Shown piece by piece: positions 1-27,817 of a stretch of DNA of 28,475 bases. The position numbers and the translations under genes were made by a program. The stretch spans positions 1 through 28,475 of the IMG/VR virus record IMGVR_UViG_3300048019_000033. One strand, 5' to 3'. This DNA is from a virus. The notes beneath the pieces were generated by a model that was not told the DNA's origin, ran no database searches, and saw nothing but the letters and a program-made list of their open reading frames with translations. The first letter of the stretch is position 1; each line of letters opens with the position of its first letter.

Positions 1-13
1 AACTGAGGTAGAA

Positions 14-175
14 ATGGACAAGCTAGATTACTTTGATGTAGGTGATGAGGTTTTAATACATGGACTCGATGAAACTTACGTTATAAGCAGTATAAAAGAT
101 GGCATATTAGAGCTAGAGGATACGTCTGGAGATGTAGTTGGTTTCTATTCTATTGATGCTGTGGAGCTAGTGTAA
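14..175 (+). CDS. Small acidic protein, unknown function
   Basis: This is a 53-codon reading frame ending in TAA at 173-175. It is open to the window's left edge, so the ATG at 14 is a choice: GAGG at 5-8 lies five bases upstream and makes a good ribosome binding site. A longer protein entering from the left is not excluded. The product is acidic, with the pattern DVGDEVLIHGLD...YVISSIKDGILELED. That alternation of short beta-like segments and turns resembles small SH3/KOW-like barrels, but I do not recognise a family. Two hairpins follow directly, so this gene probably ends a transcription unit. Confidence 0.6.
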   Translation: MDKLDYFDVGDEVLIHGLDETYVISSIKDGILELEDTSGDVVGFYSIDAVELV

Positions 176-211
176 AAAAAAGGGGCTAGTTATAAAACTG
201 ACCCCTTAAAA
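174..211. terminator. Hairpin terminator, better oriented for the minus strand
   Basis: AAGGGGCTAGTT (180-191) pairs with AACTGACCCCTT (196-207) around an ATAA loop, giving a 12-bp stem with one mismatch and one wobble. An uninterrupted A tract precedes it at 174-181. It therefore reads as stem plus U-tract on the minus strand. On the + strand the stem is followed by AAAATGATG, not a T run, so + strand termination would be weak. Confidence 0.55.
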
Positions 212-247
212 TGATGATTATTTGCACACTTCAACTAGAGTTAAAGT

Positions 248-275
248 AAAAACCCCCAAACTAGGGGGTTTCTCG
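248..275. terminator. Second intrinsic terminator-like hairpin
   Basis: AAACCCCC (250-257) pairs with GGGGGTTT (264-271) around a six-base AAACTA loop. On the + strand only TTTCTCGT follows. On the minus strand the stem is followed by a run of five T. It may act in both directions and insulates the promoter at 286 from upstream transcription. Confidence 0.6.
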
Positions 276-285
276 TATTAAGTGT

Positions 286-314
286 TTGACAACGAATACC
301 AAATACTTAATAAT
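286..314 (+). promoter_or_regulatory. Sigma-70-type promoter ahead of the structured RNA region
   Basis: A perfect TTGACA -35 box (286-291) is followed after 17 bases by AATAAT (309-314), a five-of-six match to TATAAT. The expected start of transcription is about 318-322. That coincides with the first base-paired position of the folded region downstream, and no coding sequence follows for about 480 bases. Confidence 0.7.
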
Positions 315-317
315 AAG

Positions 318-756
318 TTTGTCGACTGGTTTGCAGACCAGTAAGACCAAGTAACAGAACGAGGAACTCGGTAATACCTTGCCGACAAAAGAAATTATAC
401 TTTCACCTCCCTGTTTTATCAAGTCTTATTGCATCCAATCGACTGGTTAGCACTTGCACATGTCGCCAGAGATGGCTCACTCAGCAAGTAAAAAAAGAGG
501 ATACCGATAAGTCTAATCAATAACGCTATGAGTGGTTGATACTCATGCCAGTAAGTACATTGGGAAACCTTGCTTGCGGTGTGCTGAGTTCAGCGGTGTG
601 AAGCGTATCGGTGCGGTCATTAAGTCGTAATTCACACAGTATCAGCTTTAATGAGTAATGATACCCAGATAATGGTTCAAGCCGACTCGGATGAGCATAT
701 CTTGGCAGTACACTGAGGATTTTCTCTTTAGGAAGTCCTTGGGTAAGTATTGCCAG
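318..756 (+). ncRNA. Candidate large structured non-coding RNA (or very long structured leader)
   Basis: No reading frame covers this stretch, but the + strand folds by eye into many helices. 318-324 pairs with 383-389 (7 bp) and encloses a 6-bp hairpin (325-330/337-342) and a 4-bp hairpin (360-363/367-370). 422-425 and 428-431 pair with 441-444 and 436-439. 452-457 pairs with 484-489 and encloses GCCA-GAGA-TGGC, a GNRA tetraloop hairpin (465-476). 502-509 pairs with 606-613 (8 bp). 528-533 pairs with 541-546. 551-555 pairs with 569-573. 583-586 pairs with 591-594. 596-602 pairs with 631-637 (7 bp) and crosses 502-509/606-613 as a possible pseudoknot. 639-644 pairs with 659-664. 702-711 pairs with 747-756 (10 bp) and is capped by 713-719/736-742 and 721-724/732-735. 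A promoter sits just upstream. No terminator separates it from the gene at 795, so it may be processed from, or be a leader of, that transcript. I cannot assign it to a known family; it is not a standard tRNA, RNase P RNA or tmRNA. Confidence 0.6.
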
Positions 757-794: not shown

Positions 795-1280
795 ATGAGA
801 AATATTAAACTTAACGATGCCGAAGTTAGATTAGCTAAATATCTAGGTAAAGCTAGAGAAGAAATGAACAAGACCACTACCGACATGAAGATGGGTAATC
901 AAGATAGTCTATCTACAAATATTGAAGCGGTTGGTGCTGAACTAGCCGTATGCAAGTATTTAAATTTATACCCTGATACCGACACTTCCAGTTGGGCAGT
1001 TGCAGATTGTATATTTCATGGGTTCACGATTGATGTTAAGTGGTCTAAGTCTCACAGAAGTAACCTAGTCGCAAAGAAGAAACCTGCTAACAAGACATGT
1101 AACATCTATGTCCAAGTTACTGGCGAGATGCCTAACTATAAGATAAACGGGTACTGTTCAGCCAAGCAGCTATTCTCAGAGGACAGTAAGACTGATTTAG
1201 GCTATGGAGAGACATACTTAGTATTGAACTCTAAGTTAAAAGACATAGAAAACCTCATTAAATATAAACAAAGCGGTTGA
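795..1280 (+). CDS. PD-(D/E)XK-like nuclease (putative)
   Basis: This 161-residue protein has the spacing expected of a minimal PD-(D/E)XK nuclease core. An acidic residue lies in a helix (E49, in GAELAV). A first beta-hairpin acid follows at D71, then D80-V81-K82 on the next strand, and a basic strand around residues 89-96 leads into CNIYVQVTGEMP. In this fold the acids bind metal and the lysine assists DNA hydrolysis. Uncharacterised phage proteins of this size and pattern are common beside replication genes, where they may resolve or trim recombination intermediates; that role is inference. The start is supported by TAGGA at 786-790, four bases before the ATG. The stop codon overlaps the -35 box of the next promoter. 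No identifiable DNA-recognition domain is present, so the substrate is unknown. Confidence 0.55.
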   Translation: MRNIKLNDAEVRLAKYLGKAREEMNKTTTDMKMGNQDSLSTNIEAVGAELAVCKYLNLYPDTDTSSWAVADCIFHGFTIDVKWSKSHRSNLVAKKKPANKTCNIYVQVTGEMPNYKINGYCSAKQLFSEDSKTDLGYGETYLVLNSKLKDIENLIKYKQSG

Positions 1281-1328: not shown

Positions 1329-2816
1329 ATGAAGTTAAGACCACATCAAGAATTAGCAGTTAATATGCTACGCCAGTCAATATCTCATGGTAATAAGAGG
1401 ATAGTTCTGGCTGCTCCATGTGCGTTCGGTAAGACTCTTACAGCAGGGTATATAATTAGTAATCTAATCGCCAAGGGTAAGCAAGCGTTATTTATCTGCG
1501 ACCGAATTAAACTTGTTCAACAGTCATTATCTGCATTTGACTCACTTGGGTTGAATGTAGGTGTTATTCAAGGTAATCACGAGAGAACCGATTACTCTAA
1601 ACCTGTACAGATTGCATCCATTCAGACGTTAGCTAGAAAGAAGCATATTCCACATGCAGACGTAGTTATAGTAGATGAATGCCACATAGCGTACCGCAGC
1701 CTTAAAAATCTTATGGACAGATGGAATAACATCATTTTTATAGGGTTATCCGCTACTCCCTACTCCAAGGGTTTAGGACAGGTATATCAAGATTTAGTAG
1801 TGCCTATAACCGCAGAGCAACTAATGGATCAGTCCTATCTATGCCCAGTCGATTACTATGCAGGTGCATCATTGAACACAGATGGGGTTAAAATGAAGTC
1901 ATTACCTACAGGGGTACGTGATTATGATCCGCAGGGTTTAAAGATAGCATCGGAGGAACAGAAAGAGACCTTAACTGGTGACATCATTAAAAACTGGTTT
2001 ACCTATGCCAAGGGTAGACAGACTATTGCATTCAGCAGTTCTATTAAACACTCTAAGTATCTGGTTGACCAGTTTAGACAGGCAGGGGTTGGAGCGTATC
2101 ACATAGACGGGTACATGGAAGACAATGAGAGGCAGGAGTTATTTGAGGCTCATGATAATGGTGAGTTTGAAATCCTATCCTGTAGTCAGTTGTTATCCAC
2201 AGGGTACGACAGTCCCTCCAGTAGTTGCATTATTGATTGTAAACCAACTAAGAGTATTATTACGTATGTACAGATAGCAGGTAGGATTATGCGTACAGCT
2301 GAGGGGAAAGATAGAGCAATCTATTTAGACCATGCAGGTAACGTCCGTAGGCATGGGTTCGCTGAGTGCATCGTGCCTGATACTTTGGATGATGGTGAGA
2401 AGAAGTATAATGAGAAGAACCAAACTAAGGAGAAGAAAGAGCCACAGGTTCAGCAGTGTCCACAATGTTTTGGCGAGATGATGGGTGTCAGATGTAGTTG
2501 TGGGTATGAGATACCAATCACAAAGCAGATCCAAACCACTAACGAGATGTTGGCTAAGATGGAGAAAAGTCAGACCAAGAAAAACAATATACTATACACC
2601 CCTGAGCAGAAACAAAACTTCCTTGGTGAGTTATATCTTCATGCACATCAGAAAGGAAAGTCTAAAGGTTGGGTGGCTCACACATATAAGAGCAAGTTTA
2701 GTGTATTCCCTAATAAGATTATTCCTCGTGCAGCCCATACAGTCTCCCCCGAGGTGCAAAGTCACATTAAACACTGTGCTATCAAGTATGCAAAAGGAAT
2801 GAAGAATGCTAAATGA
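1329..2816 (+). CDS. Superfamily 2 DNA helicase (DEAD/DEAH-type) with zinc-ribbon segment
   Basis: This 495-residue ATP-dependent nucleic acid helicase carries the full SF2 motif set. The Walker A motif is APCAFGKT (29-36), the Walker B is VDECH (115-119), and motif III is SAT (141-143). Motif V is STGYDSP (about 290-296) and motif VI is QIAGRIMR (315-322), with the arginine fingers. After the two RecA-like domains, a charged linker leads to CPQC...CSC (C377, C380, C389, C391), a likely small zinc ribbon. A longer reading from a TTG at 1317 is possible. I chose the ATG at 1329 because GGGAGG (1319-1324) lies four to five bases before it and would otherwise be inside the gene. Position next to a primase-type protein suggests replication or recombination restart. 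It could also be a recombination helicase of the UvsW/RadD type. Confidence 0.9.
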   Translation: MKLRPHQELAVNMLRQSISHGNKRIVLAAPCAFGKTLTAGYIISNLIAKGKQALFICDRIKLVQQSLSAFDSLGLNVGVIQGNHERTDYSKPVQIASIQTLARKKHIPHADVVIVDECHIAYRSLKNLMDRWNNIIFIGLSATPYSKGLGQVYQDLVVPITAEQLMDQSYLCPVDYYAGASLNTDGVKMKSLPTGVRDYDPQGLKIASEEQKETLTGDIIKNWFTYAKGRQTIAFSSSIKHSKYLVDQFRQAGVGAYHIDGYMEDNERQELFEAHDNGEFEILSCSQLLSTGYDSPSSSCIIDCKPTKSIITYVQIAGRIMRTAEGKDRAIYLDHAGNVRRHGFAECIVPDTLDDGEKKYNEKNQTKEKKEPQVQQCPQCFGEMMGVRCSCGYEIPITKQIQTTNEMLAKMEKSQTKKNNILYTPEQKQNFLGELYLHAHQKGKSKGWVAHTYKSKFSVFPNKIIPRAAHTVSPEVQSHIKHCAIKYAKGMKNAK

Positions 2817-3261
2817 CTTTCTAGCAAGGTTGGATAACGTAAAGAAGAATGGTGATGACTACTATGCTATATGCCCAGTCTCTAATCATAGTGGCAAACG
2901 CAGGACTTTATCAGTAAGAGAGAAAAGTGGCGTAATCATGGCTCATTGTTTCAGCTGTGGTGCAAAGAGTAAGGAAGTTGCTAATGCTATAGGTTATAAG
3001 TTTAAAGTAAATGAATCACTGGCTAAACATAGAGAGAAGATACCATACTATAGTAAAGACCAAAGAATGTTTGACGCATACTTCATACAAGTTGTAGAAG
3101 ATGCAGAGTTCAAAGTTCCACTGAAAGATAAACTAAAATACAGACAATGTAAGCAAAGGATGAATAATTACAATGAAAGAGTTAAAGAATACTACGACAG
3201 CAGAACTACTAAAGGGCATGTATCGGAATTCCTTTCTACGCTATCACGACATCTCAGATAG
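2806..3261 (+). CDS. Stand-alone primase-type (CHC2-like) zinc-finger protein
   Basis: The 151-residue product has C23-x4-H28 and C48-x2-C51 within a pattern (YAICPVSNHSGKR...MAHCFSCGAK) typical of the zinc-binding domain at the N terminus of DnaG-type primases. In primases this module recognises the template start site. There is no TOPRIM catalytic domain here; the C-terminal 80 residues are basic and tyrosine-rich and I do not recognise them. It may be an accessory primer-recognition subunit working with the helicase or a host primase (inference). The start overlaps the helicase stop by 11 bases. AAGGA (2794-2798) lies seven bases before the ATG, suggesting translational coupling. Its 3' end overlaps the next gene by 89 bases, which is unusually long. 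Confidence 0.7.
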   Translation: MLNDFLARLDNVKKNGDDYYAICPVSNHSGKRRTLSVREKSGVIMAHCFSCGAKSKEVANAIGYKFKVNESLAKHREKIPYYSKDQRMFDAYFIQVVEDAEFKVPLKDKLKYRQCKQRMNNYNERVKEYYDSRTTKGHVSEFLSTLSRHLR

Positions 3262-17062: not shown

Positions 17063-17616
17063 TGTCAAGAGTTACCAACTCAGCAACTATAACAGCACTA
17101 GCTAGTGATAGCCTTCGTTTAGCAACTTTAATAAAGCTAAACTTCCCTACGCCTATATATATTACTGATTACGGTCAAGATATAACTGTTAACACAATTA
17201 CCTATGACGCTAGTTCTTACATTTTGCAAGTTGGCGATGCTAGTGAAACTGGCGATATTCGGGTTAACTCAATGGACTTGGTTTTAAGTGCCGTTGAGCG
17301 TTCATATGTATCCCTATTATTAACTTCAGATTACATTAATAAGCAGGTTCTTGTTCAAAGAGCGTGCCTTGACCAAAATGATAATATAATAGGCGATCCT
17401 ATAACGTACTTTGATGGTAGAATTGTATCTTACGAAATAGAAGATTCTGGAACTGACTCAAAGATAAACCTTGAGATAGCTAGTCATTGGCAGGATTTTG
17501 ATAAGGTGCAAAATAGAAAAACAAATACTAAGTCACAGCAATTCTACTTCCCTAATGACAGGGGTTTCTCTTATGCTTCTAGCACAATAACTAACTTAAA
17601 ATGGGGTAGAAAATAA
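17062..17616 (+). CDS. Minor tail protein, gpL-like or hub-adjacent
   Basis: The 184-residue product carries SLRLATLIKLNFPTPIYITDYG near the N terminus, then beta-rich segments, VERSYVSLLL, and the end WQDFDKVQNRKTNTKSQQFYFPNDRGF. The final segment (W-x-x-F-D-K, then a basic N-rich turn, SQQ, FP-D-GF) is shared by L-type and related hub proteins. Lambda gpL binds an iron-sulfur cluster through cysteines. Here only one cysteine is present, so such a cluster is unlikely. GAGGT precedes the ATG and the stop overlaps the start of the giant hub gene. Confidence 0.7.
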   Translation: MSRVTNSATITALASDSLRLATLIKLNFPTPIYITDYGQDITVNTITYDASSYILQVGDASETGDIRVNSMDLVLSAVERSYVSLLLTSDYINKQVLVQRACLDQNDNIIGDPITYFDGRIVSYEIEDSGTDSKINLEIASHWQDFDKVQNRKTNTKSQQFYFPNDRGFSYASSTITNLKWGRK

Positions 17617-20600
17617 TGGCATTCGACTTTGGTTTATCAGCACTAGTAATCGCAGTAATTAGCGCAGGTGCGTCTTACATACAGGCTAAAAAAGCACAAA
17701 AGAAAGCTAAAGAAGCTACTGAAGGTGTAGAAGCTAATATCGAATCTAACTCTAAAGAAATACCTGTTATTTACGGTGAGCGCAGGGTTGGTGGTACTCG
17801 TGTATACATTGACACATCAAGAGACGTTAAGCACCAGTATCTTTATATGGTATTGGTTATGGCTGAGGGAAAAGTAGAATCAATCTCTGATATTAAGATT
17901 GATGACATCCCCATTACAGACTCTAGGTTCACAGGTAAAATTACAACAAGCGTGCATCTAGGTGATGATAATCAACCTGTATCCACACTCATAAAAAATG
18001 GCACAAAGTACGATAATGATGAGGATGTTTGGGATGACCCCTATGACGATGAGCATGACCCTGATGATCTTATCCCTAGCGTGTCCTATCCTTGGGGAGA
18101 TAACCATCGGTTGCGTGGTGTTGCATATCTTGCACTTAAATTTAAGTGGGATGAGAATGCGTATAGTGGAGTGCCTAACGTAACAGCGGTAGTTAAAGGT
18201 AAGAAAGTATATAACCCTGACACTGGGGTAACTGAGTGGTCTGACAACCCTGCTTTATGTATTCGTGATTACTTAACTAACTCTCGATACGGTAAAGGTT
18301 TACCTGCATCAGCTATTGATGATACTGCTTTTATATCAGCTATGAATGACCTTAATGGTTTTACTATTACACCATTTACAGGCTCTACAGATACCCAAAA
18401 ATTATTTACAATGAACCATGTTGTAGATACATCAAAGACAATACTACAAAACCTAAATGACATGCTATTGTCATGCCGAGCGTTTTTACCGTACTCAAAT
18501 GGTTTGTACTCACTAAAGATAGATCAAACGTCTAGCTCAGTAATGAGTATTGGCGCTGACAAGATTATTAGTGGAATTGCAATTGCAGGGACTAAGAAAG
18601 AAGATAGGTTCAACCAAGTTAAAGTAAACTTCTTTAACAAGGCTCAAAACTACAAGGAAGACCAAGCTGTCTACCCTGAAAGTGATACTGGATTATATCA
18701 AACATACTTAACCGAAGATGAAGATGAGCCTCTTATTGATGAAGTTGATTGCTTCTCGATTAATAATTACTATTCAGCAAGAGAGATGGCAAGGTTATTC
18801 CTAGAGCGCAGTCGTCAAAATATGACGGTTGCATTTCAAGGAACAAGTGAACTAATAAATTTAGAAGTTGGTGAGGTGGTATCTATAACTCATCCTACGC
18901 CACAGTGGACTAATAAGTTATTCCAAGTGCAAGAAGTTGCTTTAGGTTTTGATGGCACTGTGCAGGTTACATGTATAGAGTATGATGCTGCATTGTATAC
19001 ATATGATACGCCAGATGAAGAACAGCCGTTTATTGGGTCGAGACTTCCTGATCCAAATCAAGTTGACCCAGTAACATTATTGACCACAACTACAGGAACT
19101 TACATTGAGTCAGACGGTAAAGCCATCGGATATATAGATATAACTTGGAGCGCTCCTTCAGATTCACTGGTTGATAGATACGAAATTAAATTCCAATACT
19201 CCAGTAAAGAGGAAGTAATAGAGGTTGCATCTGCTGAATACCGATACAAGCCAACTCAGGATAATGTAAGCTATACGATATCTGTTCGGGCGGTCAATGG
19301 GCTAGGAATACGTAGCTCATGGGTTGATGCTAGTGCTATTACATCAGTTGTTGATACCACTGCACCAAGTGTGCCAACAGGCATCACAGCTACAGGTGGA
19401 ATTAAGCATATTACATTGGATTGGACTAACCCGACAGAAGACGACTTTGATGTTGTAGAGATTTATGCTCATACTTCTGACATAGCTGATTTAACAACAG
19501 TCCAGACAACAGCTTCACTTATAGCTACAGTTAAAGTTGATAATTTTCAGCATGACCTAAATGCTAATGAAGTAACACGTCACTACTTCCTACGCTCAGT
19601 AGACCGTACTGGTAATAAAAGCGCATTTACAGATGGTGTAAGTCAGTCAACTGTCAAGGTTGTGTCTGGCGATATGGATGTAAATGAGTTATCAGATATT
19701 AGTGCTGACTTAGGTGCTATTACTGGTGGTTCAATCAATATCAATAGTGGAGTTTTCACTGTAGATAGTAGTGGTAACATGAACTCTACTAGCGCAGTTA
19801 TTGACGGTAACATTACAGCGCAATCTTTAGATGTTGAAGACGCTACCGTTACAGGTACGTTTATCGCCCCTATTGGGTGGTCTGACTCTACCTATACTCA
19901 CGTAATTGGCAGGGGAAACCTGTCTGAGTCTGTAACCAATCTTATAGATGAAAGAATAGCGGAATACGGACTATCTAGCTCAGGTGACTTTAAGGAGGCT
20001 ACAGGTAGCTTCTACTGGGAAGATGATGACCCTACAGACACATTACAGCGCACATACCCTACCATTTCTAGCTTTTCTCATGCTAACGGGAGACCTGTAG
20101 AAATAACTATTACAGGCAGTAGAACTTGGTCTGAATATTTAGCTACAGCACCTGCTGACCCTGTTACAACAGAAAATGACATAACGCTAACGTTACAGAC
20201 TAAGTTGTCTAGCTCTAGCACTTGGACTGACCTACAAACTTGGACAAGGGATGGAAGTCCTGAGATAACTGGTGGTAATTACAGCAACTCATACGGTAAC
20301 GTATACTACATAGGTGTTAATATCGCTATAGAGTACACTCATACTGGTCATACAGCAGATGATTATGATTACCGAGTTGTTATTGGGGATAATCTAGGTA
20401 CGAACTATACTCACCAAGTTGATATTAATCTGCAAGCCAATGAAGCAGGTACAGCTACAGGCGGTGGCGTAAATGATTACGCAGACTCATTCACAGTAAA
20501 TACTAGCGGTGTTCTAACTATCGGGCGAACAGGCTCTCTAGCAGACCTCACAGCCGATATATCTACATACGTAAGTAATCAGGTTAGTGCATTAGTAGAT

Positions 20601-23600
20601 AGCGCACCAGACGCATTGAATACGCTTAACGAACTAGCAAGCGCACTAGGTGATGATGAGAATTTCTCAGTAACTGTTAACAATAGTATTGCAACAAAAG
20701 CTAGTAAGGCAGGTGATACGTTTACTGGCACTGTAAATATCAATAAAACAGGAACAGCGTTAAACATACGCTCAGCCGAAGATACCACAACGCCTAGTAA
20801 AATAACATTTAGCACTCAAGGCACTTCTGGAACGCAGATAGGACATATTCAGTACACTCATAGGGATGGTTCATCTTATGGTGCTAATGAGTCTTTCACC
20901 ATAGGCGGTACAGAGAGTAGTACGGTTATTTTAGCTGATGGTCAGTTCTATTATAAAGATGGTATTTACAAGAAACCTGCAAGTGGAACAGAAGCAGGAA
21001 CTAGAAAAGATGCTAACTGGGACACAGCATATGGATGGGGCAACCATGCAAGTGCAGGGTATTTAACATCCGTACCAAGCGAGTATCTAACTCAAACAGA
21101 GGGCGATGCTAGGTATGCATTACCTAGTTCAGTTGTTCAAACTGTCTACCAAAAGAACATGAATACCTCTAGTGCAGGGTATATATCTTTTGAGTTTACA
21201 GGTTATGTAGGAACAATAGGTAGAGACTTCTATGTATTCGATGTTATAGGCTACAAAGATTTTACTGACGCTGAAAGTTTCGTACACTATACAGTTTACT
21301 TAAATTGTAAAGGGGCGTTTGGAGGTACTCTAGCTGAGAATACAATAACTGCTGATGTAATTTCTCGCAATCAGTCTGTAGATGCTAACCTAACATTTAA
21401 GCTAGAGAGAAACTTATCCCCTAATAATACCCATAAATTATGGATAGGTATTGATGAGGGTTATTCTGGTATACACATACTTCACTACCCTACATATATA
21501 GGTGATCTAACTAGGGTCTCGTCTACTAGTTTTGATTTTACATCTACAGAGCCAACAACAACTGCTACATTTGAGCCAACTGCTTATCTGCCGTTAACTG
21601 GTGGTACGGTTACAGGTGTAACTTCATTTGTTGGCACTGATGTTGGTGGTGGAACATCAAGTTATGCTGACTTTATTATAAAGGATGTTGATGCCCATTT
21701 AGACATTACAAGTAACTCAGCAGGAAGTTGGGGTAGTGTAATAAATCTTAGGGAGACAGACGGAACAGATTTTGTTAACTCTTGGTCAATCGCAAGAAAT
21801 ACAGGTTCTAGCGCAAACTTAAACTTTAACTTTGGCACTGTTAACGATCATAACGTTGGTGGTATAAAAGTATCTATCTCAAGCACTGGTGTTATATCCG
21901 CTCTAGAGGGTAACTCTAATGAATGGAATGATGCGTTTAATTGGGGTGATCACGGTAGCGCAGGGTATTTAACATCAATACCAACGCCTATTGCTGGTGA
22001 TTGGTGGAACAATGGGTTTGCGCAGATTAGAACAGATGGTGTAATGGAAGTTGGTAAGTATATTGACTTCCACGGAACAGATACAGGGACAAGTGACTTT
22101 TCAGCTAGGGTCACTAATAATGGTTCTCACCTTTACGCATCAGGTCGTTGGTATGTGAATAACAACCAAAGAGTGTTTGCGGATGACTACCACCCTAATG
22201 CAGACAAATGGACAACTGCCAGAACTATAACACTAAGCGGAGACCTAACAGGCTCTGTATCTATTGATGGGTCTAGCAATGCTACGCTATCTGCACAGGT
22301 GGTTAATGACAGCCACACTCACGATGGTCGCTATGTGAACGTTACTGGCGATACTATGACTGGTGATTTAATATTAGGCACTAATCAATTAAACTTTAAA
22401 ACATCAGGTGATTCTACATCACCTCAACTACTAGGACATAGATCTAGCACCGACCTAAATAGTAGATTTTTTACCTCAGAGGGCGGATTTTCATACACAA
22501 CTTTCGATGGGGGAACATCTAATCGACCTAGCACAGTCACAAACAACGCTAACGGATTATTTACCTTCAACACGCACTCAGGTAGTTACTCTCATCAACT
22601 ATCTTTTACTAATGGTGGCGGAGTATTCCACAGAGACAACCATAATGGAACTATAAGTTCTTGGGATAGAATATTTGCGGATGACTACCACCCCAACGCT
22701 GATAAGTGGACTACAGCTAGAACCCTATCACTAACAGGTGATGTTACTGGCTCAGTGTCATGGGATGGTTCAGCTAACGCTAGTATTACAACTGTTGTAG
22801 CTAACGATAGTCATACTCACGATGGTCGTTACTATACTGAGACTGAGTCAGATAGTCGTTTTGCGAATATTACTGGTGATACTTTCACAGGGAACGTAAA
22901 TGTTGACGGTGGTTATCTACAAGCGCATGGACTTTTCTACCTACGTGATGACTTAAACTTCATCAATTCAGGTGCTAATGGTTGGCATACAATTATAGAA
23001 AAGAATGGTGGTAATCCATACTTTAACGCTATTGATAGCTATCGTGTTGGTGGTACAACTGTAATAGACTCAAGCCGTAACCTTACTAATATTGGAACTA
23101 TCACCACATCTGGAAAAGGTATCTTTGGAGGAGATGACAATTATATAAGAGTAGGTGGCAGTGGCGGTGGTAAGTCAGGTGTTTTTGGAAACCGCATGAC
23201 TAGCAATGGGTCTAACTTGTCCTATGGGGCATATCTAGCCTATGACGCTTTCTGGAACGGTTCTGCATGGCAAGCTAATAGAACGACTCTTACTAGAAAG
23301 TGGATGACTCACATTGGTGGGTATCATGATAATAACTTCCATATTAATTATTACGGAAATAGTGCGAGTGGAACTTGGGCTGATAGTGATTGGACTAGAC
23401 TACTTACATTAAATTCTAGTGGTTTACTTAATACGCTTTCAGGCTATCAAGTTAACGGAACAACAGTTATAGACTCTAGCCTTAACCTTATTAATATTGA
23501 CGATGCAACCATAGGGACTGGTAGTGCTAACTTTACTAGGTACACATCGGCTAACTTATCCGTACCAGATCTTAAATTTTATGCAGGTGGAAAGACTGGT

Positions 23601-26246
23601 TGGGGAGTAGATGACGAACTAGGTAAGATAAGATGGTACATAAATGACGGCTCAGGTATTGGAGCTAGAGATGCGGTTAAGATAGTTGCATTATGTGAAA
23701 GTGGCAATGGAACAAGTACAACAACATTTAGTGGTGCTTTAGCATTCCATACGTCAAGTTACAACGCTCAACCTAGAGAGACTATTAGATTTGACTCAAA
23801 TGGCAATCTTAATGTAAAGATTGGTGACTACCAAGTCAATGGCACAACTGTTATAGACTCTAATCGTAACCTTACCAATGTATCATCTATATTTGCTAGT
23901 AGTAGAATATCTACAAGTTCAACAGTTAGCGCATCATCATTATCTGGGATAACTACCGGTCAAGGCGCTTTCTTTGCTTACCACCCAACTCATACGGCAG
24001 GCACTACCACGTACTACCCAACTATAGGTAGTACGTCTATACATAACAATGGTTATAGACAGCACTTATCATTTGGTCATAAGCGTGCATCTGCGTGGGA
24101 CGAAGCATACATAGCTTTAGGTGGTAATGACGCATACCCAACTAAAGAATGGTTGTTTGACGCTGTATCTGGTTCATTTAGCTCTGAGTCTTATAAGGTA
24201 AGTGGCACGACTGTTATAGATTCTAGCAGAAGCCTTACCAATATAGGATTAATTACTTGCTCAGGATCATTAACAAGTAGTGATAAGGTTAAAAGTGTAT
24301 ACTCAAGCACTAACTATTCACAGCTTGAAAGTAATGCTTCTGGTGGTGTGTTAAAACTTGAAGGTGGTGGCAGTACTTTACTTAGAAGTTATGGGTTATC
24401 AGAGTTCCCTAACGGAATAGGCATTGGGTCTACAACTGTAATAGACTCTAGCCGTAACCTTATTAATGTAGGTAAGATTAACTCAGGTGCTATTACAAAT
24501 GACAACACAGGCGCACTAAGAATACTTCACCCAGATGGAGCATCTTATACATCTAATGGCGCAACTGGAGCAATCAAAATAACCCTACCTGTAGCATGGA
24601 CTAATACCATGATGCGTATGACCGTTAAGGTTTACGAGTATACTACAGGCGAGTCATTTGAGGTTTGTGTTGGTGGGTACAACCACACTGGTAGTAATGG
24701 TCTTTGGTATAACACGTTCGCTCATATCATTAGCGACCCAGACACCAATAGAAACTTTACTGTTAGATATGGTCATGATGGCTCTAAGGCGTGTATATGG
24801 ATAGGTGAAACCAACTCATCTTGGGCGTATCCAAAAGTATCTGTTGTAGACTTTCAAGCAGGGCATAATAGTTCAAGTGAAGCGACATGGGCTACTGGGT
24901 GGAGTGTAGGTTTTGTAACTAGCTTTGGCACTGTTCAGCGCAGTCATACTAATAATGAAGTTGGTATTGATGGATATGAAAAGCGCATTGGTGGGATAAC
25001 AGTAATAGACTCTAGCCGTAATGCTACATTTGCAAATTTAACTACATCTGGGACTACCACACTTGGTAATGGTACTGGCGATAAAACAAAAATAAATGAC
25101 ATACTTGAGTTGTGGTCTACTGATTCTGGTGATGCCCACTTCTACTTTGGTGAGAATAGCTCAGGTGGATACGGGTCTTACTGGAATTGGGATTCTTCCT
25201 ATACCCATACATGGCACTCTAGACATGCAGGTACTAATTCTGCAATTATGTCACACGATACCCGATATACTCACAAGTTTAGAGTTAATAGAGGCATTGA
25301 AAGGGTTGGTCATAGTAACGGCTACTTTATAGGGTCTTATAACTCTACAGGTGCAAATTCCTACAAAACAAACCCAATATACACTATAGGTGATAGCTAT
25401 AGACCTACAGATACCTCACTAGGTAATATGTATGGTGTTGGGTATGCTCATAATAACTTTTGGGGTTCAGGTAAATCTGTCGGTTGGGGTCTTTATGTTT
25501 GTGAAGCAGGTGTATTCAAAACCACTATAGCGGCTGGTGGGTTGTGGCAAAACGGAACTATTGATGCTACAGGTGGTTTTAAGTTAAATAGTACTGTAGT
25601 TATAGATGGAAGTCGTAACCTTACTAATATCGGTAATGCCACTTTAAGCGGTGATATTAATTGCGATGATGTAATTACCAATAGAGTAATAGATAAAGCA
25701 GATAGTTCAACATATCTAGAATTGCGTGGCGATGGTGGCGGGTTAAGAGCGCAAACAGCAAGTGGGCACATAGATATAGGCGCAAGGAATACAAGTCATG
25801 CTCATTTCTACACTGATAGAAGTAACTACTACTTCAACACAGAGATTAGAGTAGACTCAGGGATTATCGGGTCTTACAATGAGGACTTAAAACTACGTAG
25901 AGCGTCAAACAGTAGTCACCAAATGACACTCACCACCTCAGGGGCTACATTTACAGGTAACGTTACAGCATACTCAGATGCTAGACTTAAAGATAATGTG
26001 AAAACATTAGACGGCAGTAAAGTATACGAGATGCGTGGCGTATCATTCACTAAGGACGGTGAACTCGGCTCAGGTGTTATTGCACAGGAACTTGAACAGG
26101 TCGCACCAGAGCTAGTAATGACAAATAGTGATGAGATGCAAACCAAGTCAGTTGCATACGGTAACGTGGTAGGCTATCTTATTGAAGCAATCAAAGAACT
26201 TAAACTCGAAATAGAGGAACTTAAAAATGGCACTAACAGCAATTAA
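17616..26246 (+). CDS. Giant tail-tip hub and fibre protein, J-like, with C-terminal S74 chaperone
   Basis: A single 2876-residue protein of about 8.6 kb. A hydrophobic N terminus is followed by a J-type hub (about 50-470) with EIPVIYGERRVGG and NPALCIRDYLTNSRYGKG (about 211-228). Two FN3-like domains follow (about 480-570 and 577-680). A J-type central region lies at about 680-760. The rest is a very long beta-rich fibre with collar-like repeats and seven TVIDSSRNLTNIG-type units. The C terminus, YSDARLKDNVKTLDGSK...GSGVIAQELEQVAPELV, is an S74 intramolecular chaperone. Ser2787 and Lys2792 are the expected self-cleavage dyad, releasing about 90 residues after trimer folding. The lambda K- and I-type genes that normally lie before J are absent. 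The protein very likely binds the host and fixes its range. Confidence 0.88.
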   Translation: MAFDFGLSALVIAVISAGASYIQAKKAQKKAKEATEGVEANIESNSKEIPVIYGERRVGGTRVYIDTSRDVKHQYLYMVLVMAEGKVESISDIKIDDIPITDSRFTGKITTSVHLGDDNQPVSTLIKNGTKYDNDEDVWDDPYDDEHDPDDLIPSVSYPWGDNHRLRGVAYLALKFKWDENAYSGVPNVTAVVKGKKVYNPDTGVTEWSDNPALCIRDYLTNSRYGKGLPASAIDDTAFISAMNDLNGFTITPFTGSTDTQKLFTMNHVVDTSKTILQNLNDMLLSCRAFLPYSNGLYSLKIDQTSSSVMSIGADKIISGIAIAGTKKEDRFNQVKVNFFNKAQNYKEDQAVYPESDTGLYQTYLTEDEDEPLIDEVDCFSINNYYSAREMARLFLERSRQNMTVAFQGTSELINLEVGEVVSITHPTPQWTNKLFQVQEVALGFDGTVQVTCIEYDAALYTYDTPDEEQPFIGSRLPDPNQVDPVTLLTTTTGTYIESDGKAIGYIDITWSAPSDSLVDRYEIKFQYSSKEEVIEVASAEYRYKPTQDNVSYTISVRAVNGLGIRSSWVDASAITSVVDTTAPSVPTGITATGGIKHITLDWTNPTEDDFDVVEIYAHTSDIADLTTVQTTASLIATVKVDNFQHDLNANEVTRHYFLRSVDRTGNKSAFTDGVSQSTVKVVSGDMDVNELSDISADLGAITGGSININSGVFTVDSSGNMNSTSAVIDGNITAQSLDVEDATVTGTFIAPIGWSDSTYTHVIGRGNLSESVTNLIDERIAEYGLSSSGDFKEATGSFYWEDDDPTDTLQRTYPTISSFSHANGRPVEITITGSRTWSEYLATAPADPVTTENDITLTLQTKLSSSSTWTDLQTWTRDGSPEITGGNYSNSYGNVYYIGVNIAIEYTHTGHTADDYDYRVVIGDNLGTNYTHQVDINLQANEAGTATGGGVNDYADSFTVNTSGVLTIGRTGSLADLTADISTYVSNQVSALVDSAPDALNTLNELASALGDDENFSVTVNNSIATKASKAGDTFTGTVNINKTGTALNIRSAEDTTTPSKITFSTQGTSGTQIGHIQYTHRDGSSYGANESFTIGGTESSTVILADGQFYYKDGIYKKPASGTEAGTRKDANWDTAYGWGNHASAGYLTSVPSEYLTQTEGDARYALPSSVVQTVYQKNMNTSSAGYISFEFTGYVGTIGRDFYVFDVIGYKDFTDAESFVHYTVYLNCKGAFGGTLAENTITADVISRNQSVDANLTFKLERNLSPNNTHKLWIGIDEGYSGIHILHYPTYIGDLTRVSSTSFDFTSTEPTTTATFEPTAYLPLTGGTVTGVTSFVGTDVGGGTSSYADFIIKDVDAHLDITSNSAGSWGSVINLRETDGTDFVNSWSIARNTGSSANLNFNFGTVNDHNVGGIKVSISSTGVISALEGNSNEWNDAFNWGDHGSAGYLTSIPTPIAGDWWNNGFAQIRTDGVMEVGKYIDFHGTDTGTSDFSARVTNNGSHLYASGRWYVNNNQRVFADDYHPNADKWTTARTITLSGDLTGSVSIDGSSNATLSAQVVNDSHTHDGRYVNVTGDTMTGDLILGTNQLNFKTSGDSTSPQLLGHRSSTDLNSRFFTSEGGFSYTTFDGGTSNRPSTVTNNANGLFTFNTHSGSYSHQLSFTNGGGVFHRDNHNGTISSWDRIFADDYHPNADKWTTARTLSLTGDVTGSVSWDGSANASITTVVANDSHTHDGRYYTETESDSRFANITGDTFTGNVNVDGGYLQAHGLFYLRDDLNFINSGANGWHTIIEKNGGNPYFNAIDSYRVGGTTVIDSSRNLTNIGTITTSGKGIFGGDDNYIRVGGSGGGKSGVFGNRMTSNGSNLSYGAYLAYDAFWNGSAWQANRTTLTRKWMTHIGGYHDNNFHINYYGNSASGTWADSDWTRLLTLNSSGLLNTLSGYQVNGTTVIDSSLNLINIDDATIGTGSANFTRYTSANLSVPDLKFYAGGKTGWGVDDELGKIRWYINDGSGIGARDAVKIVALCESGNGTSTTTFSGALAFHTSSYNAQPRETIRFDSNGNLNVKIGDYQVNGTTVIDSNRNLTNVSSIFASSRISTSSTVSASSLSGITTGQGAFFAYHPTHTAGTTTYYPTIGSTSIHNNGYRQHLSFGHKRASAWDEAYIALGGNDAYPTKEWLFDAVSGSFSSESYKVSGTTVIDSSRSLTNIGLITCSGSLTSSDKVKSVYSSTNYSQLESNASGGVLKLEGGGSTLLRSYGLSEFPNGIGIGSTTVIDSSRNLINVGKINSGAITNDNTGALRILHPDGASYTSNGATGAIKITLPVAWTNTMMRMTVKVYEYTTGESFEVCVGGYNHTGSNGLWYNTFAHIISDPDTNRNFTVRYGHDGSKACIWIGETNSSWAYPKVSVVDFQAGHNSSSEATWATGWSVGFVTSFGTVQRSHTNNEVGIDGYEKRIGGITVIDSSRNATFANLTTSGTTTLGNGTGDKTKINDILELWSTDSGDAHFYFGENSSGGYGSYWNWDSSYTHTWHSRHAGTNSAIMSHDTRYTHKFRVNRGIERVGHSNGYFIGSYNSTGANSYKTNPIYTIGDSYRPTDTSLGNMYGVGYAHNNFWGSGKSVGWGLYVCEAGVFKTTIAAGGLWQNGTIDATGGFKLNSTVVIDGSRNLTNIGNATLSGDINCDDVITNRVIDKADSSTYLELRGDGGGLRAQTASGHIDIGARNTSHAHFYTDRSNYYFNTEIRVDSGIIGSYNEDLKLRRASNSSHQMTLTTSGATFTGNVTAYSDARLKDNVKTLDGSKVYEMRGVSFTKDGELGSGVIAQELEQVAPELVMTNSDEMQTKSVAYGNVVGYLIEAIKELKLEIEELKNGTNSN
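22168..22838 (+). repeat. Pair of long fibre repeats within the hub gene
   Basis: Two paralogous segments encode FADDYHPNADKWTTART, then a GD(L/V)TGSVS strand set and NDSHTHDGRY. The identical stretch TTTGCGGATGACTACCACCC is at 22176-22195 and 22674-22693. Histidine-rich NDSHTHDGRY motifs of this type occur in many phage fibres, where the histidines can bind metal at the trimer axis. The second copy continues into TESDSRFAN-type collar sequence. Confidence 0.8.
23040..25634 (+). repeat. Seven interspersed TVIDSSRNLTNIG-type fibre units
   Basis: Units begin at 23040, 23445, 23829, 24192, 24417, 24981 and 25578, each 19 residues long and ending in variants of NLTNIG. The core T-x-V-I-D-(S/G)-(S/N)-R-N is preserved while the intervening domains (225-597 bp apart) differ. 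This suggests a modular shaft in which variable receptor-facing domains are strung between constant connectors. Confidence 0.85.
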
Positions 26247-26484: not shown

Positions 26485-26705
26485 TGGCTATTACAACAAC
26501 TAGAACTCTAGTGGGGATAGATGTTGCGTATGAGAACGGGGTAGTCAGTAAAATGGCTGTCGCATACTCTTACCACTTCGATGACCCTGACGACACAGAA
26601 TTGCCTGTAGACGTAATTAAATGGAAGGAAATATACTCTGATACCGATGTTACAGGTGAGCATGCAGACGTAATCGCTATGCACAATTATTTATACGGTG
26701 AGTAG
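26484..26705 (+). CDS. Small protein, paralogue of the preceding gene
   Basis: The 73-residue product begins MAITTTRTLVGIDVAYENGVVSKMAVAYSYHFDDPDDTELPV, aligning with the previous protein across the N-terminal strands and the DPDD-x-x-LP motif. The C-terminal halves differ. GAGGAT precedes the ATG and the start overlaps the upstream stop, so the two are translated together. Duplication followed by divergence is the simplest reading; no function is recognised. Confidence 0.6.
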   Translation: MAITTTRTLVGIDVAYENGVVSKMAVAYSYHFDDPDDTELPVDVIKWKEIYSDTDVTGEHADVIAMHNYLYGE

Positions 26706-26707
26706 TT

Positions 26708-27817
26708 ATGGCTGATTACATTGTCGGTATATCACATCAAGGTACTGTCTTTGAAGAATGTTGGCCTGACGTAATCAGTATATCTTCCAATAGTTCAACT
26801 ACGGGTTATTCTGGCACTCAGGTTAACAATGCTATAAATAGTAGCTATACAACAGCACCATCTAGTCCATTACCTATTAATACTGGTGATAGGATTAGGG
26901 TTGTGGTTTACGGGCAAAACTATTATCAGCATGACATATCCTTTAATTCCGCTATAGACCCTAGTTTTCTGACCAATGGAACAAGTGTGTCAGGTCTTAA
27001 CGTATCAGGTGTGACTAGGCACTTTCCTAGTTCGACCACTTGGTACACTGTAGGCAACACATCGGGCAACTTTAAGATAAACCTAAACTTCACAGGTTAT
27101 GAAACAGATGACTGTGAGTTTGATGAGCAGGACTTCCTAGCAGGTAGACGGCTTTGGTTTAATGTGTCCTCACTAGGCGCATCTAGTACGCTAATTCCGC
27201 TAGGAATAATATCTGGTGCAATATCTATGGGTAATCTTAGTGATTTCTTTGGCACACCATCTTATACATCCGACACTATAGCGATGTCTGACCTATATAA
27301 AGGTGGATACTTAGTTCCTAATATATCAGAGAATTCCCAAGTTCCTACTAGTGGCTCTGTAAGTCTATCTAACTTCTATAGCTCATACACTAGATTGGAA
27401 TTTGACAAGCATCCTACTACAAAATGGATAGAGGAATTTAGCACGCAGTCCACAGGTACTATGCAAGCGCAATGGGTTATGAATATAACACCTACTGGGC
27501 AAGGTGATTTTGATGTTGGCTACGGTATGCTTAAAGCTAGTGACTTGGAGTACCGTTGGGTGGTCACAGGTGGCAATCAGTTAACCCGTATGGTCATAGA
27601 TGGTAATGTTTACACAACGTCATCAAGTACGTATACTAGTCCTTGGGGTAGCACAGGTACGTTACAATTAGAACGTGACTGGACTTCCGCTAATCAGAGT
27701 TTTGAAATATCTGGCACTGCAAGAGTAGAGGTCAGAAAGGTATGGAACTCTGTAACTTATACTATTTCATCTAGTTCAGCTAGTTGGAAACTGCATAAAT
27801 TTAACTCAGTGGAGTAA
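26708..27817 (+). CDS. Fibre-like virion protein (putative)
   Basis: The 369-residue product is Ser/Thr/Gly-rich and beta-strand-rich. It contains ISMGNLSDFFG followed by VPTSGSVSLSNFYSSY, a motif (I-S-M/L-x-x-(L/F) ... VPxSG-x-(I/V)-SLS-x-FY) that occurs in many phage virion proteins near tail fibres. The C-terminal 120 residues are beta-sandwich-like (LQLERDWTSANQSFEISGTARVEVR). A tail-tip decoration or receptor-binding role is plausible but not shown. GGTGAG supports the start. Confidence 0.6.
   Translation: MADYIVGISHQGTVFEECWPDVISISSNSSTTGYSGTQVNNAINSSYTTAPSSPLPINTGDRIRVVVYGQNYYQHDISFNSAIDPSFLTNGTSVSGLNVSGVTRHFPSSTTWYTVGNTSGNFKINLNFTGYETDDCEFDEQDFLAGRRLWFNVSSLGASSTLIPLGIISGAISMGNLSDFFGTPSYTSDTIAMSDLYKGGYLVPNISENSQVPTSGSVSLSNFYSSYTRLEFDKHPTTKWIEEFSTQSTGTMQAQWVMNITPTGQGDFDVGYGMLKASDLEYRWVVTGGNQLTRMVIDGNVYTTSSSTYTSPWGSTGTLQLERDWTSANQSFEISGTARVEVRKVWNSVTYTISSSSASWKLHKFNSVE

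Follow-up and report, generated by a model that had tools for sequence, protein, structure and literature searches.

A structured RNA of uncultured phages in the place of a replication initiator gene, with features that suggest antisense control

The RNA locus and its opposing promoters

The window, a 28.5-kb phage contig from IMG/VR analysed over its full 28,475 nucleotides, carries a gpA-type terminase gene plus further head and tail genes. The RNA locus studied here occupies positions 318-756 and is followed on the + strand by genes for a small protein (phrog_18407; 795..1280) with homologues downstream of the RNA in three relatives (L002, L003 and L036), for an SF2 (ResIII) helicase (phrog_16; 1329..2816) and, 3' of the helicase, for a primase-like protein that has the CHC2 zinc ribbon only (2806..3261). 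No + strand ORF of at least 50 aa lies within 176-794, the flanking ORFs ending at 175 and starting at 795, and no tRNA or tmRNA was found in the window. Far from the locus, a single ORF of 2876 aa (17616-26246) is tail-like and contains many repeats of a VIDSSRNL-type motif.

A sigma-70-like promoter on the + strand (286..314; -35 TTGACA, 17-nt spacer, -10 AATAAT; predicted start ~320-322) matches the consensus at 11 of 12 positions; an earlier note on this DNA was right to describe a gene-free stretch of about 440 bases behind a consensus promoter. It had also judged by eye that the stretch folds, and this is borne out on the + strand, where 318-756 reaches -134.5 kcal/mol (z -3.7 versus shuffles), as against z -0.4 on the - strand; folded separately, the + strand of 318-441 and of 442-756 gives z -3.3 and -2.9, respectively. 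Because one of 40 other window stretches of the same length folds more extremely, folding energy by itself is weak evidence for an RNA here. That stretch, a coding one at 26641-27079, lies slightly beyond the RNA locus in this measure (z -4.1 versus shuffles).

The 5' domain of the window has the elements by which the family described below is defined: sense promoter, helix P1, hairpin P2, opposing promoter and distal element. P1 joins TTTGTCG (318..324, + strand) to CGACAAA (383..389, + strand), a stem that the earlier note had listed and that compensatory change in relatives supports. In many of these the P1 3' strand lies ~40 nt past P2, with differing complementary sequences, for example TGTGTCGG/CCGACACG, TGTCGCGGG/TCCGCGACA and TATGTTCCGGA/TCCGGAACATG; taken singly, the P1 pairings are mostly not significant. 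A MAFFT alignment of the 5' domain, in which the P1 3' strand was misplaced, was kept out of the counts. P2 (CTGGTTTGCAGACCAG; 326..341, + strand) has the loop UUGCAG, and its centre follows the end of the sense promoter -10 by 18-26 nt in 20 of 20 members examined.

Among 20 members the P2 stems covary and the loops vary. The loops TTGCAG, CTGCAA, TTGGCAG, CTGCCAA, TTGGTAG, TTACCAG and TTGGCG are represented, the first being the exact reverse complement of the second and the third that of the fourth, and the near-identical cores of L041, L045, L055 and L040 carry differing loops. Such variation, reverse complements included, is the pattern expected of a loop by which sense and antisense RNAs recognise each other, making the P2 loop a candidate for that role. 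Three loci (L079, L080 and L083) combine a conserved core with a quite different 5' domain in which no obvious P2 is seen.

The 5' arm of P2 also has a second potential partner. The distal element TGCATCCAATCGAC (430..443, + strand) is complementary to GTCGACTGGTTTGCA at 321-335, a pairing mutually exclusive with P1 and P2, and across members the distal partner of the P2 arm lies ~65-145 nt further on. The P2 arm pairs better with a member's own distal element than with the elements of other clades (Wilcoxon p 7e-5 over 19 members that are related and non-independent). With these moderate statistics, the sequences suggest that the sense RNA has mutually exclusive conformations, in which the P2 arm is paired either locally or distally.

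A second promoter points back at this domain from the - strand (422-394; -35 TTGATA at 422-417, 17-nt spacer, -10 TATAAT at 399-394; start ~387), and with it goes a predicted antisense transcription unit that was absent from the earlier account. The predicted antisense RNA (243..387, - strand; ~145 nt) would comprise a three-way fold of P1/P2, a hairpin over the sense promoter and an intrinsic terminator at 267-253 (CCCCTAGTTTGGGGG then TTTTTACTTT); it folds with z -4.7, and across the eight members of the window's clade the corresponding stretch lies between z -3.2 and -5.6 in every case. Outside that clade the antisense stretch is not unusually stable in most members tested, and no obvious antisense terminator was seen. 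A promoter-like site on the opposite strand, with a spacer of 16-18 nt and pointing back from 52-75 nt beyond P2, is present in most members with enough sequence, the exceptions being L045 and L055; in L041 it is the second-best site. Just upstream of the antisense terminator, a near-palindrome (ACTTCAACTAGAGTTAAAGT; window 225-250), mostly kept in L002 and L003, is a possible operator.

A family of RNAs with a covarying core

About 24 distinct relatives were found in IMG/VR contigs, and the RNA is carried by many uncultured, mostly aquatic phages whose surrounding genes differ. L002 and L003 were recovered by a search with the downstream protein, and L016 and the truncated L005 with the hairpin CTGGTTTGCAGACCAG; motifs common to the first relatives led to L036 and then to more loci, which carry AGGCGGG..AAACAGCGT. 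The final set comprises 46 loci in 24 clusters, nearly all of them members; L095 is a chance coding match.

The core was defined from an alignment of 25 sequences, which was scanned for columns that covary, with no fold assumed beforehand. The scan gave a 5' hairpin (H0), a loop pseudoknot (pk0), a helix a, and helices b and c, which a crosses; the invariant helix d (CAGCG/TGCTG) and the hairpin e were added by inspection. The resulting shared core of ~230 nt has seven helices, two pseudoknots and 41 pairs, within a + strand RNA of ~440-550 nt. Paired cells amount to 94.7% versus 70.5% in shuffled alignments, changes on both sides occur in 28 of the 41 pairs, and the covariation score is 0.609 versus 0.179 when shuffled and at most 0.141 when slid, values that are to be read with the structure and its controls coming from the same alignment, which favours the structure. 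So large an effect, with so many compensatory changes, leaves no reasonable doubt that the core is a structured RNA. The large structured phage RNA proposed in the earlier note is in this way supported through covariation in its relatives.

The search for a known family in Rfam that the note had also suggested turned up nothing relevant: neither the window nor the relatives tested have a relevant match in release 15 at gathering or permissive thresholds, and RNAI (RF00106) has none at gathering and one chance-level match of 17.8 bits against a cut-off of 47. No published description of the RNA family was found. The covariation is strong, and Rfam release 15 has no entry for this class of structured RNA. 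The window and four relatives gave no real blastn match to cultured phages (INPHARED) or plasmids, and the RNA was not found in Roseobacter phage CRP-823, which has the closest terminase among cultured phages. In 398 Pseudomonadota genomes the core model found one marginal match of 20.9 bits (L127; G191 C55 4114-4222). Two matches to the exact hairpin pattern in genome contigs were set aside as chance, their genomes lacking a core match. A weak match to the core model in Pseudoalteromonas phage HS5 (L128 21185-21275; 15.8 bits, E 0.002) may also be chance.

The window itself departs from the family in its 3' part (444..756, + strand), which ends in AAGTATTGCCAG, resembling the ACTATTGCCTG of the family. 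Window and L002 share 92-95% identity in the two flanks (window 1-342, and from 794) and do not align in 343-793, the interior having been replaced between these near-identical sequences; L002 keeps parts of the family core (partial model match, E 7e-6). The 3' part of the window has no significant match to the core model R1, a forced fit onto the family core failed, and 442-790 has no convincing match in any other fetched locus. Since neither the core model nor any fetched locus matches, the window copy combines the shared control domain with a different or strongly diverged 3' part, which may nevertheless do the same job as the family core. All three remaining stems of the earlier note (502-509/606-613, 596-602/631-637 and 702-711/747-756) fall within this part, which has no homologue among the fetched loci.

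Genomic context and the function of the RNA

The RNA lies between recombination and replication genes. Upstream are recombination genes (Erf, YqaJ, SSB, NinG and similar), and downstream, often directly, are the SF2 helicase and the CHC2 zinc-ribbon protein; the helicase directly follows the core in L041, L078, L081, L084 and L088, mostly with the CHC2 protein next. In cultured phages that have the corresponding helicase and primase-like genes, RepL is encoded on the upstream side: directly before the helicase gene in Vibrio phages 1.233.A and 1.115.A, and one gene further up in Pseudoalteromonas phage HS5 (RepL confirmed by HMM for 1.233.A only). The RNA occupies the place where cultured relatives keep the RepL initiator gene. 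RepL was not found in 27 RNA-bearing records, and searches of 17 such records gave no integrase, Pol A, lambda-O-like protein or DnaB above cut-off, all of these records being fragments. GC skew was rejected as an origin signature: along seven contigs it keeps one sign throughout, rising in the direction of the RNA, and co-oriented genes give the same pattern. DnaA boxes form no consistent pattern. In G009 (L112/L113) the early region also has genes for a Tet/JBP-type oxygenase and ParB-like proteins, a hint of possible DNA base modification.

The reading preferred here, to which we give a probability of about 0.55, is that the locus is a replication initiation module that is built on an RNA and controlled in antisense, and the best explanation of how such a module would work is in the manner of ColE1 RNA II/RNA I, from outside the ColE1 family. 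It is preferred because the locus follows the logic of ColE1: an RNA stands where other phages have an initiator gene, a predicted antisense RNA opposes it, and its 5' domain appears able to switch. The + strand RNA would be transcribed toward the helicase gene, and its compact 3' core with two pseudoknots would open or prime an origin just upstream of the helicase-primase genes, as RNA II does in ColE1, and would so replace a protein initiator. The short RNA from the opposing promoter would copy the P1/P2 domain in antisense. Meeting through the P2 loop, the two RNAs would pair and so block the switch of the P2 5' arm to its distal partner, setting the folding fate of the nascent RNA; replication would thereby be limited and compatibility groups defined. 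The computed basis of this scheme consists of the covarying RNA family, the conserved positions of both promoters, the alternative pairing (with moderate statistics), the location and the gene content, and from it we infer transcription, priming, antisense action and an equivalent role for the divergent 3' part of the window.

A variant, put forward tentatively, keeps initiation by the double-pseudoknot RNA without a protein initiator and assigns it to a non-ColE1 mechanism with a swappable antisense specificity module. The folded core might, for example, itself recruit host replication enzymes, and the swappable module might define compatibility or immunity groups among related phages.

That the RNA is instead an antisense-controlled 5' leader of the helicase or early operon seems rather unlikely. 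The antisense RNA would then decide whether the leader is read through or adopts a fold that terminates transcription or blocks translation, a scheme known from the pT181 and pIP501 attenuators, where an antisense RNA chooses between alternative folds of the nascent leader. The RNA does lie directly upstream of genes in the same orientation, its 5' domain looks switchable and is faced by an antisense promoter, and in L036, L056, L082 and L088 its 3' end ACTATTGTCTGGAG leads straight into what is probably a ribosome-binding site. However, no terminator-like hairpin was noticed where the core ends, a promoter-like sequence lies (by eye) between core and gene in L039 and L097, the conserved ~230-nt double-pseudoknot core exceeds the needs of a leader, and the missing initiator would stay unexplained. 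The gene that follows the RNA, which in several members is not the helicase, cuts both ways: its variation among phages speaks against a leader, and because it need not be the helicase, a leader role for nearby genes keeps some plausibility.

A trans-acting structural RNA of the GOLLD or ROOL kind, serving as RNA cage, scaffold or regulator with the antisense control incidental, is improbable. The earlier note had named these as the nearest parallel, and an ornate, non-coding, phage-borne RNA of ~440 nt that covaries over much of its length would suit them; yet a search of the Rfam models gave no match to GOLLD, ROOL or any family, the linkage to replication and recombination genes recurs, and the anatomy differs in its opposing promoter within the RNA, its alternative pairing of the first hairpin and its location in the place of a replication-initiator gene. 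A DNA-level element, made up of operators and inverted repeats near early promoters and involving no functional RNA, would account for P2 as an inverted repeat that tolerates reverse-complement loops and for the inverted repeat in the promoter spacer of the window's clade, but is very improbable when pseudoknotted pairs separated by up to ~300 columns show the covariation of RNA pairing, with G-U pairs among them, and the + strand of 318-756 folds better than the - strand.

If antisense-controlled initiation by the RNA is true, a group of uncultured phages swaps its replication-initiator protein for an RNA, and antisense control of the plasmid type also governs how many copies of phage DNA are made or how co-infecting relatives compete. 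At its small size the module can be tested on a plasmid, and the covariance model is a direct means of finding more members. Even with the function left aside, the family adds a covarying structured RNA class new to Rfam release 15.

Comparison with known systems

The pT181 and pIP501 attenuators resemble the phage locus in the antisense choice between alternative folds, and differ in that here neither a protein initiator gene nor a terminator was found downstream of the switch. GOLLD and ROOL are likewise large ornate RNAs (PMC12286853); the phage family has no Rfam match to them, lies in another context, has another architecture and includes an antisense unit.

RNA-based origins have been proposed for the prophages of cluster A mycobacteriophages, in which the stability of lysogens depends on the RNA region and some origins are incompatible with related ones (PMC7157519). 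As proposed here, replication would begin at a non-coding RNA stretch, ~400-500 bp long, and involve no replication protein (PMC7157519). The hosts are different, however, and the mycobacteriophage origin lies beside parABS in extrachromosomal prophages, for which the paper describes no secondary structure (PMC7157519), and the contigs here show no integrase.

The closest model is ColE1, in which replication is primed by RNA II, whose start lies 555 bp upstream of the origin, and RNA I, with its start 445 bp upstream, diverts RNA II into the wrong fold (PMC11012335). The phage family has no sequence or covariance-model similarity to RNAI (RF00106), and its core has no recognisable sequence or structure in common with the ColE1 RNAs in Rfam. 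It has one main 5' hairpin where ColE1 has three, it is phage-borne with a conserved double-pseudoknot core, and priming, established for RNA II, is here inferred. In the window's clade the predicted antisense RNA resembles RNA I in its length of ~110-145 nt, its structured loops and its terminator, a likeness not seen in the other clades, and the RNA-bearing records, all of them fragments, show no initiator protein. The two systems are alike in RNA length, in an opposing promoter within the first 60-110 nt and in a sense RNA with (here predicted) mutually exclusive folds.
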